The notes beneath the pieces are model-generated. The model saw nothing but the letters and a program-made list of their open reading frames with translations. It made no database searches and was not told where the DNA came from. From NCBI GenBank assembly GCA_037139415.1, contig JBAXGN010000031.1:1-49586 (forward strand): a stretch of DNA of 49,586 nt, read 5' to 3'. Source of the DNA: Verrucomicrobiota bacterium. GTDB taxonomy: Bacteria; Verrucomicrobiota; Verrucomicrobiia; Limisphaerales; Fontisphaeraceae. This document shows, in pieces, positions 37,662 through 42,171 of the stretch. The position numbers and the translations under genes were made by a program. The first letter of the stretch is position 1; every line of letters starts with the position of its first letter.

Positions 37662-39401
37662 TCAAGCCGTGGGAACGTCCGCTGCCAATGGGCGGACCAA
37701 TTCAAAATTGCACAAGCGCAGCTCTGGTTTTCCAAACGTATCGAGTACCAACTGTTTTTTTGCATCGAAGGCGATTAGCAAATGCTCGGGCTCCAGGTTG
37801 AGATCTTCAAAACCGAATCGGGCTAAACGAAGGCGGGCGTGCTCCAATAGTCCCACCACCTCGGTTGCCGAGAGCAACTTCATTTCCTGGGCTTGGTGCA
37901 GGTTTAAACTGCGGTAATGCCCTGTATCATGGTCGGCGAGCTGTTGGTCGGGGCCATTCCACCAACCCCAGATAGTGATGTAATCATGATCCTGACGCAG
38001 CACCGGATGGCCATCGGGCGTCCGTAGATCCGCCAGCGGCGTGTAGTGCCGCAGATCTACCAGTTGGGTCTCCGTTTTGTGCCCCGTCATGTAAATGGCT
38101 CGCGGATAGGTAGTGCGCCCGCCGCGTCGGGCAATTTCCATGGCATACGAAAACGCCTCGAACGGGTTGTTGAAGCCATGCTCAAGGATGGCACGGGAAT
38201 TCGAGCTATCATCGGGTACTTCGGGACGCAACCCCAAACGGGAGATTTTCCACACCAAGTTGACATTGTCCTTGGTGCGTGTGTGCGCCGCCTGAGAATG
38301 GTCTGCCAGCGGGTTTTTGGGCGTGCGCCGCCAGCGTTCCGGCAGGAAGAAATTAAACAGCTCAGGATCTTTGCCCACCACCCACATCAGCCCCCCAGTG
38401 CTTTCGGCATGGCCGTAAATATAATCCACGCCGAGAATATTGACTGCTTTGAGATGTGATGGCAGTGGATTACTGGCGTTATCCTCAAAACGGCGCGCCA
38501 TGTGGCTGAGGTAATACTGGCGGTTGGCGCTGCGAACCGCCTGCTCGTGTTCTTCCGTTCGTAACATCAGTTCATAATCAATCAACGCATAGACGATCTG
38601 GCGATGACGATCTCGCATCAGGGAAAAATCCGGCTGGGGACGCACGATCACATGGGCGGGCTTCATATCCACCACCCGGTAGCCTTTTTGTTCCAATTCG
38701 TGGATGACCAGACTGGTCATGCCAGCTAGCATTTGATTTCGCGCCGTCCCTTCGAGTTGGAATAAATCCGCAGTTTCCACCAAGTCCAGCCCCTTGACCC
38801 AGCCATAAATTACCACGTATTGCCGTAGGATATCCAATTCCACCCCCGGACTACGCGCCAGCTTCGCAGCCATTTTGTCTTCCGAGCGTCCGGTTTGCCA
38901 GAATTGCAGGCGCTCAGAGGGCACATAGATGGCGAGCGGTTTTTGAGTGCGGATACGAATATCAGGCGGACCATACTCTCCTTTGCGTAATTCCATGAGC
39001 AAGGAGAACTCCTCGAACGGACTGTTGAATTCGGCATGAATAAATTTATTCATGGTCAGGGTATCCACGGGAATCACCTCGCCGACGCGGGACCATTTGA
39101 CTACCAGGTGGAGACTGACGCCGCCCACCTCCTTCGTGGGTAAACGATACACAGTGCTGGTGCCCAAGAGCCGTTCCCGCTTGGTTTCAAACCAATCCCG
39201 GGCGTACCAATTATGCGGCTGCAGATGTTCCCAGAACGGGCAGCCGTACTGGGTTAGGAATAGATCGCCACCATCCTCCGTTTTCAGGTGGAAATACTCC
39301 ACCCCCAACAGATTCATGCGCACTGCTGTCGTGGGCAGAGACGCGCGCACAGGCAGTGCCGGCTTACGGCCGTCAGTCTTCGTTTTGACCGTGTGCGCCA
39401 T
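37662..39401 (-). CDS. Unrecognised protein with two tandem kinase-like domains
   Basis: 579 aa, ATG start, no signal peptide or membrane segment. The protein is an internal duplication with an offset of 279-290 residues. Matching pairs: LLGVEYF/ILGVDYI (31/322); LHLVVKWSRVG/VNLVWKISRLG (K102/K385, like the beta-3 lysine of kinases); FNSPFEEFSLLMEL/FNNPFEAFSYAMEI (125/410, like helix C); YVVIYGW/YITIWGW (195/474); YRVVDMKPAHVIV/FGFEDLNLEPEHLLI (D245/D533, like the HRDLKPEN loop); YALIDYELM/LRLCNFELV (D275/N565, like DFG). Repeat 1 keeps K102, D245 and D275, so it might bind ATP and metal; repeat 2 has N in place of the last Asp and looks degenerate. I infer an active plus pseudokinase pair. 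Neighbours do not reveal a substrate. Confidence 0.7.
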   Translation of the reverse strand: MAHTVKTKTDGRKPALPVRASLPTTAVRMNLLGVEYFHLKTEDGGDLFLTQYGCPFWEHLQPHNWYARDWFETKRERLLGTSTVYRLPTKEVGGVSLHLVVKWSRVGEVIPVDTLTMNKFIHAEFNSPFEEFSLLMELRKGEYGPPDIRIRTQKPLAIYVPSERLQFWQTGRSEDKMAAKLARSPGVELDILRQYVVIYGWVKGLDLVETADLFQLEGTARNQMLAGMTSLVIHELEQKGYRVVDMKPAHVIVRPQPDFSLMRDRHRQIVYALIDYELMLRTEEHEQAVRSANRQYYLSHMARRFEDNASNPLPSHLKAVNILGVDYIYGHAESTGGLMWVVGKDPELFNFFLPERWRRTPKNPLADHSQAAHTRTKDNVNLVWKISRLGLRPEVPDDSSNSRAILEHGFNNPFEAFSYAMEIARRGGRTTYPRAIYMTGHKTETQLVDLRHYTPLADLRTPDGHPVLRQDHDYITIWGWWNGPDQQLADHDTGHYRSLNLHQAQEMKLLSATEVVGLLEHARLRLARFGFEDLNLEPEHLLIAFDAKKQLVLDTFGKPELRLCNFELVRPLAADVPTA

Positions 39402-39422: not shown

Positions 39423-40400
39423 TTATTTGCCGCCGAAAATCAGGCTCAACCGCTGGCTATTCTCTTCCAGTGTGCATTGCCCGCCTTCGATGGTCAGGAA
39501 ACCAGTATAACCAACTTTCTCCAGCGCTTGCCGCACCAGCGGCCAATTGACGTCGCCCTCGCGAATATTTACAAACTTGCCACCACTCTTGGCGGCACGA
39601 TCCACTTTGAAATCCTTCGCGTGTAACTTCACAATCAGTCCGCCGAGCGTGGTGATCCATTCCTCGGATGGCGCATACTTCACGTGATTGCCGATGTCGA
39701 AATAAGCACGAATCCACGGGCTCCCGAACGATTCCACAAACTGTTTGAAGACCGCCGGTTTCACCCACAGGTTGTTCCACACGTTTTCCAGCGCGACCTT
39801 CACGTTGGTTTTCTCGGCGATTGGGATTAACTTGCTGACCCATTCGCGCGATGTGTCCACCGCGTGATCGTGTGCCTTGATATACTCGGCATAAGGTGCG
39901 TTATCCCCTTTGACCACACGTTTCAAATGTCCCGTTTGCGCGTCAAATTCAATGTCGAAGTCCCACGGATCCGGCGTCTTCACGCCACCGATGCGGCACG
40001 GCACCAGCAATACGGCATCCGCGCCAAACGCCTGGGCGGTTTCCAGCGCCAGCACGGTTTTATCGAATGTGGCCTGCGCCTTGGCCTTATCCGGGCTGTT
40101 AAATTCCGCCCACCCACGGATGACCGAATGAATCCGCAGGCCAACCTTATCGGCCAGCACCCGGCACTTGGCCGCCTCTTCCGGGCCAATGACCCCTCCT
40201 TCCACCCCATCGTAACCGGCAGCCTTTAGTTTCTCCAGTGCTGCCTCTGTGTTTTTTTCAGCGATGACCGCCTTAAATAGTTTGGTCTTGAAGGTGGTTT
40301 CTTGTGCCTGGCTGGTCAATACTTGGGAACCAATCGCCACACCCGCTGCCATGGTGGTGGCTGAGGCCAGGAACTCCCGTCGGTGATGCAAGTGCTTCAT
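39423..40400 (-). CDS. Tat-exported sugar phosphate isomerase/epimerase-like protein
   Basis: 325 aa from ATG 40400 (the in-frame TTG at 40424 adds eight poor residues). Tat signal HRREFLASATTMAAGVAIGSQ. TIM barrel of the xylose isomerase-like/AP endonuclease 2 family: LEKLKAAGYDGVEGGVIGPEEA, RIHSVIRGWAEF, GADAVLLVPCRIGG, VKVALENVWNNL (metal Glu), WIRAYFDIGNHVKY (metal Asp/His), IVKLHAKDFK (His), and FLTIEGGQC (Glu). All four usual metal ligands are therefore seen, unlike the related exported protein at 23,380. Probably periplasmic sugar isomerase or epimerase. It lies 21 bp upstream of the kinase-like gene on the same strand, likely one transcript. Confidence 0.87.
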   Translation of the reverse strand: MKHLHHRREFLASATTMAAGVAIGSQVLTSQAQETTFKTKLFKAVIAEKNTEAALEKLKAAGYDGVEGGVIGPEEAAKCRVLADKVGLRIHSVIRGWAEFNSPDKAKAQATFDKTVLALETAQAFGADAVLLVPCRIGGVKTPDPWDFDIEFDAQTGHLKRVVKGDNAPYAEYIKAHDHAVDTSREWVSKLIPIAEKTNVKVALENVWNNLWVKPAVFKQFVESFGSPWIRAYFDIGNHVKYAPSEEWITTLGGLIVKLHAKDFKVDRAAKSGGKFVNIREGDVNWPLVRQALEKVGYTGFLTIEGGQCTLEENSQRLSLIFGGK

Positions 40401-40462
40401 GGCCGTAACTATGATCGGATCCAACCAAAATACAAGTTCAGGTTATCGGATTGAATAAGGCA

Positions 40463-40518: not shown

Positions 40519-42171
40519 ATGAACCAAGCGCCACAGGTGAAGGCGGAAATACAGAGTGCGCTGGCAGCGGTGGCCAGTCGCATGTTGCCGCGCATTCTCA
40601 CGGCGATCTGCCGCGATCCCAACAGCCCGTGCTACGGCGCGGCCGACCGCGACTGGTGGCATTACAAGATCCGGGATTTCCCTTCGTTGATTCTCCAGCA
40701 GGGCGGCTACGCGCTTTGGCAGGCGGCTGCGCTGGAGGCGTGGCGCGAGGACGCTCCGGCGTTGCGCGCTTTGGCAGCCGCTTCGTGCCGCTTTTGGAAT
40801 CAGCGGGCCATCAAGTTCCGCGCCTTCGAAGAGTATTATCCCTGGGAGGAAGGCTATCCTCCCCTGGCATTCTCCACGCTGGCGGTGGCCAAACTGGTGG
40901 CGGAACAGGCGCTACCGGTGGGGGACGTGCTGCCCGGCTTGCGGGTGGCCGCCCGGCAATTGCAGATTCGCTTTGAATCCGAAGCCGCCAATCAGCAGGT
41001 TGCCGGGCTGGCCGCGCTAGCCTGGGTTCGCAAGGTGGCGCCCGAACTGGTCGCGGCGGCGCGCTTTGAGGAATGGATCACCCGCAGTTTGGCGTTACAA
41101 CACGACGAGGGTTGGTTTCGTGAATATGGCGGGCCGGATTTGGGCTATCTCGCGGTCACGCTGGATTGCCTGTTTGATTTGCTGGACGCCACCGGGGATG
41201 CCCGGTTCGCCAGGGCGATTCAGCGTGCGCTTGCGTTCATTGTCACGGTGACCGATTCGGGGCGCGTGGCCGTGGGCCTGCATAACGCCCGTAACACCGA
41301 TTACCTGGTGCCGTACGGGTTGGTGCGCGCCTCGCTAGATGCCAGTTTCGCCAATCCCGGTTTGACCGCCACTGTCGAACGCCTTTTCGGCAACGCCGCT
41401 GATCCCAGCCATTTCTTTGCTGCCGTGGATGACCGGTATTGCTGCCATTACATCGGGCAATCCGTCGTGCGCGTCCTAGCCTGGATTTCACGTCAGACGG
41501 GTGATGCGCCTGCGAAAGATCAAACGCCGACTATCAGTCCAGTGGCAGCAACGTTTCCGTCCAACCAAATGCTGCCCGGTGCGGGATATTGGCTCGTTCG
41601 CGAGAACGTTCAGGCGGGTGGTTGGCATGGTCTGGTGGCTCTGCGTAAAGGCGGTATCATCACCGCGGCTCGTGGCGCATCCGTGCTGGCGGATTTTGGT
41701 TGGATTTATTTCGCCTCGGATGGCCAGCATATCTCGCATTGGTGGAGCGATGATTGGAAATTTTCCTGCCAGAATCAAACCGCTGCCGTGGAAGGCTCCC
41801 TGTATGTGCATCGCGAGACCGCCAGCAGTCCATTTTCCCATATCGCGCTGCGCGGACTCAGTCTGGTATTCGGACGTCAGATCATCCAGATGCTGAAACG
41901 CCTGCTGATTTTCAAAAAACCGCAGTCGCCCGTCCGTTTCTGCCGCCAGATTGAGTTCAGCAAGGATGAGGTGCGGGTGACGGACCGATTCACGGGACTA
42001 CCCGCCAACCCGGATTTGCGGCGCGCCCCGCGCACATCCAAACGGCATGTGGCCAGCGCGGATTCTTTCCACGCAGAGGATTTGCGCCTTCTACGCGGTG
42101 TTCAGTACACCGAGGAGCGGCGTGAGGCGGCGGGGGTGCTAACGGTGGTGACAATTTACCGGCTAGGATAA
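40519..42171 (+). CDS. Unrecognised 550-aa protein, helical toroid-like
   Basis: ATG start; no signal peptide or clear membrane anchor. Residues 1-330 have helical pairs with scattered aromatic residues (DWWHYKIRDFPSLILQQGGYALWQAAAL, EGYPPLAFSTLAVAKLV, GWFREYGGPDLGYLAVTLDCLFDLLDATGD) as in alpha/alpha-toroid enzymes acting on polysaccharides; residues 350-550 are beta-rich (WHGLVALRKGGIITAARGASVLADFGWIYF, HISHWWSDDWKFSCQNQTAAVEGSLYVH), as in the C-terminal domains of heparinase-like lyases. I cannot assign a family or active site. The next gene starts 1 nt after the stop, so it is in an operon with a lipoprotein and a DUF2238 membrane protein. Confidence 0.75.
   Translation: MNQAPQVKAEIQSALAAVASRMLPRILTAICRDPNSPCYGAADRDWWHYKIRDFPSLILQQGGYALWQAAALEAWREDAPALRALAAASCRFWNQRAIKFRAFEEYYPWEEGYPPLAFSTLAVAKLVAEQALPVGDVLPGLRVAARQLQIRFESEAANQQVAGLAALAWVRKVAPELVAAARFEEWITRSLALQHDEGWFREYGGPDLGYLAVTLDCLFDLLDATGDARFARAIQRALAFIVTVTDSGRVAVGLHNARNTDYLVPYGLVRASLDASFANPGLTATVERLFGNAADPSHFFAAVDDRYCCHYIGQSVVRVLAWISRQTGDAPAKDQTPTISPVAATFPSNQMLPGAGYWLVRENVQAGGWHGLVALRKGGIITAARGASVLADFGWIYFASDGQHISHWWSDDWKFSCQNQTAAVEGSLYVHRETASSPFSHIALRGLSLVFGRQIIQMLKRLLIFKKPQSPVRFCRQIEFSKDEVRVTDRFTGLPANPDLRRAPRTSKRHVASADSFHAEDLRLLRGVQYTEERREAAGVLTVVTIYRLG

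Follow-up and report, generated by a model that had tools for sequence, protein, structure and literature searches.

The window analysed here, the whole 49,586-nucleotide stretch of a Verrucomicrobiota contig, carries on its minus strand a gene for a 579-residue protein (P0001) in which a kinase-like half is followed by a related, degenerate half. Its features are listed below; residue counts, here and later, were taken over 68 full-length homologs, which represent about ten phyla.

37662..39401, minus strand: whole gene, open frame with ATG start, tandem kinase-pseudokinase protein of 579 residues
38556..39338, minus strand: N-terminal kinase-like domain, residues 22-282 (model pLDDT 91.5, kinase matches in the PDB, residue counts)
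39096..39098, minus strand: K102, beta-3 lysine candidate, end of strand 98-103 (68/68)
39009..39014, minus strand: E130/E131, helix 128-140, alpha-C position (68/68)
38652..38669, minus strand: catalytic loop D245-M-K-P-A-H250 (D and K 68/68, P 66/68, H 67/68)
38577..38579, minus strand: D275, putative metal-binding Asp of the DFG-equivalent, D-Y/F-E-L (68/68)
37686..38468, minus strand: C-terminal pseudokinase domain, residues 312-572 (modelled with the same fold as the N half and homologous to it)
37782..37799, minus strand: degenerate catalytic loop N535-L-E-P-E-H540, catalytic Asp lost (profile alignment, 68 homologs)
37707..37709, minus strand: N565 where the metal Asp would be (65/68 have Asn, none has Asp)

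The two halves of the protein are homologous. Residues 1-300 align with residues 301-579 at E=2e-12 (BLASTP, 25% identity, 277 residues aligned) and the family profiles of the two halves align over 244 columns with a probability of 99.8 and E=2e-29 (hhalign); the internal duplication is therefore far beyond chance. An initial annotation of this DNA had described a tandem arrangement with paired segments 279-290 residues apart, and the profile alignment of the halves returns the same range: the offset is 283 residues for K102/K385, 285 for E130/E415, 279 for the hinge residues Y195/Y474, and 290 for each of D245/N535, H250/H540 and D275/N565. That annotation had also read the segments as following the order of kinase landmarks, a view that structure prediction and comparison with the PDB now bear out for both halves. 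AlphaFold, supplied with 68 family sequences, modelled the whole protein at pLDDT 90.9 (pTM 0.83) and the N half at pLDDT 91.5 (pTM 0.88). The top Foldseek matches in the PDB were kinases only, with E values from 2.7e-4 for the whole protein and 1.9e-4 for the N half, and every row listed by VIA-align for residues 29-291 and 321-579 was a kinase-fold protein, with Z up to 9.4; among them were DAPK1 (Z 9.4, 4.2 angstrom over 153 aligned residues), WaaP (Z 8.6-8.8), MSMEG_1954 (Z 8.0-8.9) and RIO1 (Z 7.3-8.5). A single Z of 8-9 is modest, and the kinase-fold claim is carried by the uniform list of matches together with the landmarks. In the whole-protein model these run, within the N half, from strand 98-103, with K102, through helix 128-140, with E130/E131, the hinge after strand 196-200 and a long helix (218-238) to the D245-H250 loop, a further strand and then D275, and from their places in the predicted secondary structure K102, E130, D245 and D275 would be the equivalents of K72, E91, D166 and D184. 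We regard the models as confirming that both halves belong to the protein-kinase fold, or protein-kinase-like (PKL) superfamily.

The N half had been called apparently intact, and its catalytic residues K, E, D, K and D do occur in all 68 homologs; the full invariant set comprises K102, E130, E131, D245, K247, D275 and E277. The D245-H250 stretch aligns with the catalytic loops of Ser/Thr kinases (hmmsearch), and its K-P (K 68/68, P 66/68) matches the [LI]KPx signature of Ser/Thr protein kinases (PMC1821047), the preceding position being mostly M or R, not L or I. The position equivalent to N171 is His in 67 of the 68 homologs (H250 in the window protein) and Asn in the remaining one. A His at this position is unusual, but WaaP, a PKL superfamily member, has the same replacement, so that Asn is not an exclusive mark of the superfamily; there H168 takes the place of Asn and coordinates the second Mg, and the H168A variant supports no growth (PMC6147952). 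The N half lacks the His and Arg of HRD, its catalytic loop reading VVD, and the Gly of DFG, which is replaced by D-Y/F-E. In the model it also lacks an activation segment and GHI helices, with one helix following D275 before the second half starts. We presume that the N half would bind Mg-ATP through K102/E130, H250 and D275 and would transfer phosphate through D245/K247.

The C half, its columns assigned from the profile alignment of the two halves, is more degenerate than the initial annotation had recognized. The N replacing the metal Asp was noted correctly (N565), but the catalytic Asp and Lys are replaced too, by N535 and E537, and the D-x-K-P-x-H motif that had been described as paired in both halves is present in the first half only and reads N-L-E-P-E-H in the second. 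Across the 68 homologs the catalytic-Asp column holds N in 37, L in 16, Y in four and D in four; the K247-equivalent is K or R alongside other residues, the H250-equivalent is H or D, and the beta-3 Lys column contains K, E or R. None of the 68 retains both Asp residues in the C half, which, as a kinase fold without at least one of the catalytic K, D and D, is a pseudokinase. Mean pairwise identity is 48% in the C half as compared to 47% in the N half, and because the two are equally conserved the C half is evidently under constraint at the sequence level. Such constraint on a dead half would fit regulation between the halves. For instance, the C half, presumably incapable of catalysis, might play a regulatory or docking role, either sensing a metabolite or holding a target enzyme.

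No family was recognized for this protein at the outset, and profile searches agree: the 579-residue protein passed no Pfam or NCBIfam cut-off, nor did 67 N halves pass any in Pfam. The nearest Pfam echo is of the UbiB/ABC1 type, found in 21 of the 67 members with a best E of 0.003. ABC1 (PF03109) was rejected as a family assignment, scoring 14.1 bits for P0001 against a cut-off of 22.9; the KxGQ motif, a hallmark of ABC1/UbiB, is absent, and P0001 contains no G-Q pair. FlgO (E=0.004-0.01) was likewise below its cut-off, matched only a 35-residue helix-strand stretch and was rejected. Pkinase (PF00069) gave no match to P0001 and weak matches to three of the 67 N halves (best E=0.011); PF06293 (Kdo) matched neither P0001 nor the family members searched at E<=1, WaaY (PF06176) appeared weakly in two members (best 0.034), and no SelO, SidJ or AceK match to P0001 was found in Pfam or NCBIfam. 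A PDB sequence search with the full protein gave nothing convincing; with the N profile it gave many Ser/Thr kinases, all at E>=0.02, and with the C profile no match. A literature search found no named family for the tandem protein and no bacterial kinase of phosphoenolpyruvate (PEP) carboxykinase (PEPCK), and a 2025 review that covers seven families of bacterial pseudokinases mentions none that is tandem or linked to PEPCK. As far as the literature and family databases were searched, this kinase-pseudokinase family appears to be undescribed. Weak matches to the family profile were also seen in small, genuine Pkinase proteins of Planctomycetota with the motif DIKPGHLIL, with His for Asn (L138:735-1541 and L139-L141), whose genes adjoin PAS-domain-like genes in several loci; these may be the nearest ordinary kinase relatives of the family.

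About 70 full-length homologs, at 38-67% identity, were found. By record titles they come from Verrucomicrobiota, Planctomycetota, Spirochaetota, Nitrospirota, Elusimicrobiota, Omnitrophota, Auribacterota, FCPU426, Raymondbacteria, Kiritimatiellota and deltaproteobacterial groups. The spread is patchy: 27 of 388 genomes in the window's phylum (counting single-domain members), six of 198 in Spirochaetota and 15 of 148 in Nitrospirota. Single-domain homologs of about 300 residues also exist; some of them (L014, L015 and L142) have Arg at the beta-3 Lys position and keep D, K, H and D. In a tree of the halves, sampled from phyla other than Nitrospirota, all C halves fall on one side of a branch with an SH-aLRT of 100, which points to a single old duplication as the source of the N and C halves. 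The single-domain proteins are placed among the N halves; with the root on the branch that separates the C halves, this would suggest that the C half was lost later, probably on two occasions. At two loci (L164:8470-10154 and L165:8135-9810, in G264 and G351) the kinase and pseudokinase halves occupy two overlapping ORFs in different frames, a layout due either to real splitting of the gene or to single-base assembly indels.

The genes beside the family point to the PEP node. GTP-PEPCK genes, identified as NCBIfam PRK04210 at E<1e-285, lie upstream of the kinase gene on the same strand, within about 200 bp, in most Nitrospirota loci, and 25-157 bp downstream on the same strand in two Verrucomicrobiota and one Raymondbacteria locus (L028, L033 and L040). 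When 70 immediate neighbours from all the other phyla (Nitrospirota set aside) were scanned without bias against Pfam and NCBIfam, only three functions came up at least three times, namely GTP-PEPCK, pyruvate carboxylase subunit B and PTS-EIIA. Among 70 genes lying beyond 2.5 kb, taken as a control from the same and further loci, no family exceeded two occurrences, and of the PEP-node enzymes only one EIIA was present. Rarer neighbours of the kinase include malic enzyme, malate dehydrogenase and FBP aldolase/phosphatase; PTS enzyme I lies beside one family member (L134), and a PEP carboxylase gene precedes a single-domain homolog by 13 bp. A PEP-node gene stands within 400 bp of the kinase in 28 of 101 loci, but as this gene set was named after the data had been seen, the unbiased scan is the firmer evidence. 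A gene for an M50 site-2-type protease-like protein, often followed by TrpS, is found near the kinase-PEPCK pair at Nitrospirota loci L045, L046, L051, L052, L055-L057 and L084, and a similar M50/TrpS pair lies near kinase and PEPCK in Planctomycetota (L142); we set the Nitrospirota protease and TrpS neighbours aside as probable lineage synteny.

In the window itself, as in most Verrucomicrobiota, no GTP-PEPCK gene adjoins the kinase, and this genome's copy is on another contig (G000:C106). A Tat-signal, xylose-isomerase-like TIM-barrel gene (39423-40424, minus strand) shares the strand of the kinase gene, 21 bp upstream of it, and is possibly co-transcribed with it; this pairing does not recur in other loci. 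A convergent NikR gene adjoins the kinase gene; NikR, cmk and plsC, none of them recurrent at homologous loci, were discounted as chance neighbours. The window also encodes a 550-residue protein (40519-42171, plus strand) without a Pfam or NCBIfam match at E<=1.

Of 148 Nitrospirota genomes, 15 encode the full-length kinase and 16 encode GTP-PEPCK. Every one of the 15 also has GTP-PEPCK, on the same contig and just upstream, as compared to one of the 133 without the kinase (Fisher p=1e-19, kinship ignored), a co-occurrence that may amount to one inherited operon. Among kinase-bearing genomes outside Verrucomicrobiota and Nitrospirota, 22 of 24 have GTP-PEPCK and none of the 24 has ATP-PEPCK above cut-off. 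Ten of these 22 (G444, G445, G446, G449, G451, G454, G456, G458, G461 and G769) carry a divergent class of GTP-PEPCK, scoring 341-369 bits as compared to about 510-590. Spirochaetota show no association (4/6 with the kinase versus 111/192 without), and in the two Spirochaetota members lacking GTP-PEPCK, G483 and G605, the genes next to the kinase are PTS-EIIA (L132) and PTS enzyme I (L134). In the window's phylum GTP-PEPCK is present in 340 of 388 genomes, including all 27 with the kinase, and because it is nearly universal there its co-occurrence is uninformative.

We tentatively favour a kinase with a regulatory pseudokinase half of the same ancestry, controlling PEPCK or the PEP-pyruvate-oxaloacetate node. 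Its job would be post-translational control of carbon flow among phosphoenolpyruvate, pyruvate and oxaloacetate, with GTP-PEPCK the likeliest partner or substrate. A fuller version, to which we lean with more reserve, is that this multi-phylum family forms a dedicated switch of the PEP node, phosphorylating GTP-PEPCK and other (de)carboxylating enzymes, with the pseudokinase serving for sensing or docking; as such it would parallel AceK and plant PEPC kinase. The variation in partner genes between loci, the lack of GTP-PEPCK in G483 and G605 and the separation of kinase and PEPCK in the window count against the favoured reading; the varied partners would fit one kinase shared by several PEP/pyruvate/oxaloacetate enzymes, where futile cycling must be prevented. 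Alternatively, the kinase may be a general one that stands near PEPCK through the inheritance of a few operons and not for reasons of function. The PEPCK-adjacent loci are indeed mostly in Nitrospirota, and neither the separation of the two genes in the window and most Verrucomicrobiota nor the missing co-occurrence signal in Spirochaetota speaks for a functional tie. We nonetheless consider this reading distinctly improbable, given that kinase and PEPCK occur in two opposite gene orders in unrelated phyla and that PEP carboxylase, pyruvate carboxylase, malic enzyme and PTS enzyme I adjoin other members, when the distal control holds a lone EIIA.

Three further alternatives concern the chemistry. 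The lack of the HRD His/Arg, of the DFG Gly and of the parts that protein kinases use for their substrates, the activation segment and GHI helices, argues against a protein kinase, and the N half might instead have a small metabolite of the PEP-oxaloacetate node as its substrate, or make a signalling phosphate compound, with the C half structural or allosteric. A domain with just one linking helix beyond the DFG-equivalent, and no activation segment, is like minimal small-molecule kinases, and the metal-site His is that of the LPS kinase WaaP; on the other hand, the invariant K-P of the catalytic loop is a protein Ser/Thr kinase signature, and differing partner enzymes suit a shared regulator better than a single metabolic step, so that we think a metabolite kinase unlikely. 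It is rather less likely that the protein is a non-catalytic scaffold, binding ATP or ADP together with PEPCK or other enzymes and acting allosterically without phosphotransfer. The UbiB/ABC1-type echo and the conservation of a dead C half to the same degree as the N half would suit such a role, whereas the complete catalytic set of all 68 N halves, including the base D245 and K247, exceeds the needs of ATP binding. Kinase-fold proteins with altered active sites can perform other chemistry, AMPylation in SelO and glutamylation in SidJ, and the DFG and HRD motifs of the tandem protein are non-canonical; with Lys, Glu, Asp, Lys and Asp at the usual kinase positions, and no match to either family, we judge this very improbable. 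The duplication, the fold of both halves, the catalytic set kept in one half and lost in the other, and the genomic linkage are observed; in the reading that we favour, phosphotransfer by the N half, a protein substrate, PEPCK or a neighbouring PEP-node enzyme as that substrate and regulation or docking by the C half are inferred.

The new element suggested here is the genomic tie of a kinase family to PEPCK and the PEP node, a link that lies outside the window and is absent from the initial annotation. If true, bacteria would gain a kinase family with a built-in pseudokinase partner, and PEPCK, the entry step of gluconeogenesis from oxaloacetate, would gain a covalent control point. The function is directly testable, since in Nitrospirota the kinase and PEPCK genes are neighbours with the same orientation. 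The family would also offer a clean case of a dead kinase half kept under the same constraint as its live twin.

With Pkinase (PF00069) the protein shares the kinase fold, beta-3 Lys, alpha-C Glu, catalytic Asp, xKPx and metal Asp; it differs in falling below the Pfam cut-off, in having His for Asn and D-Y/F-E for DFG, and in lacking the HRD His/Arg, the activation segment with its APE and the alpha-F to alpha-I lobe, GHI helices included. The WaaP/KdoK LPS kinases are alike in their minimal kinase fold (6dfl, Z 8.6-8.8) and in the D-x4-H loop, the His standing five residues after the catalytic Asp (D245/H250 here, D163/H168 in WaaP; PMC6147952), whereas our protein has no HRD, a pseudokinase in tandem and another gene context. 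ABC1/UbiB (PF03109) offers a weak profile echo at the catalytic region and structural matches to 7cyr and 5yjz (Z 7.7-8.9), but the protein is below cut-off, lacks KxGQ and has His instead of the Asn of DPHPGN. JAK-type tandems also join an active and an inactive kinase domain in one chain; here, however, the kinase comes first (the order is reversed), the sequence is unrelated, there are no receptor-binding or SH2 parts, and 8ewy, aligned to the whole model at Z 9.1, gives an rmsd of 18 angstrom, so that the two-domain arrangement is not superposable. AceK, which phosphorylates isocitrate dehydrogenase, resembles the proposed function in being a dedicated kinase at a branch point of central carbon metabolism (PMC6591243), and differs in the absence of a sequence match, in its enzyme neighbourhood and in lacking the tandem halves. 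In plants, phosphorylation of PEPC and PEPCK is known (PMC11971034, PMC10346404), which would follow the same logic with another kinase family, the link in our case coming from genomic context alone. We thus offer AceK and the plant enzymes by analogy, as precedents for the logic of such control and with no claim of family membership.
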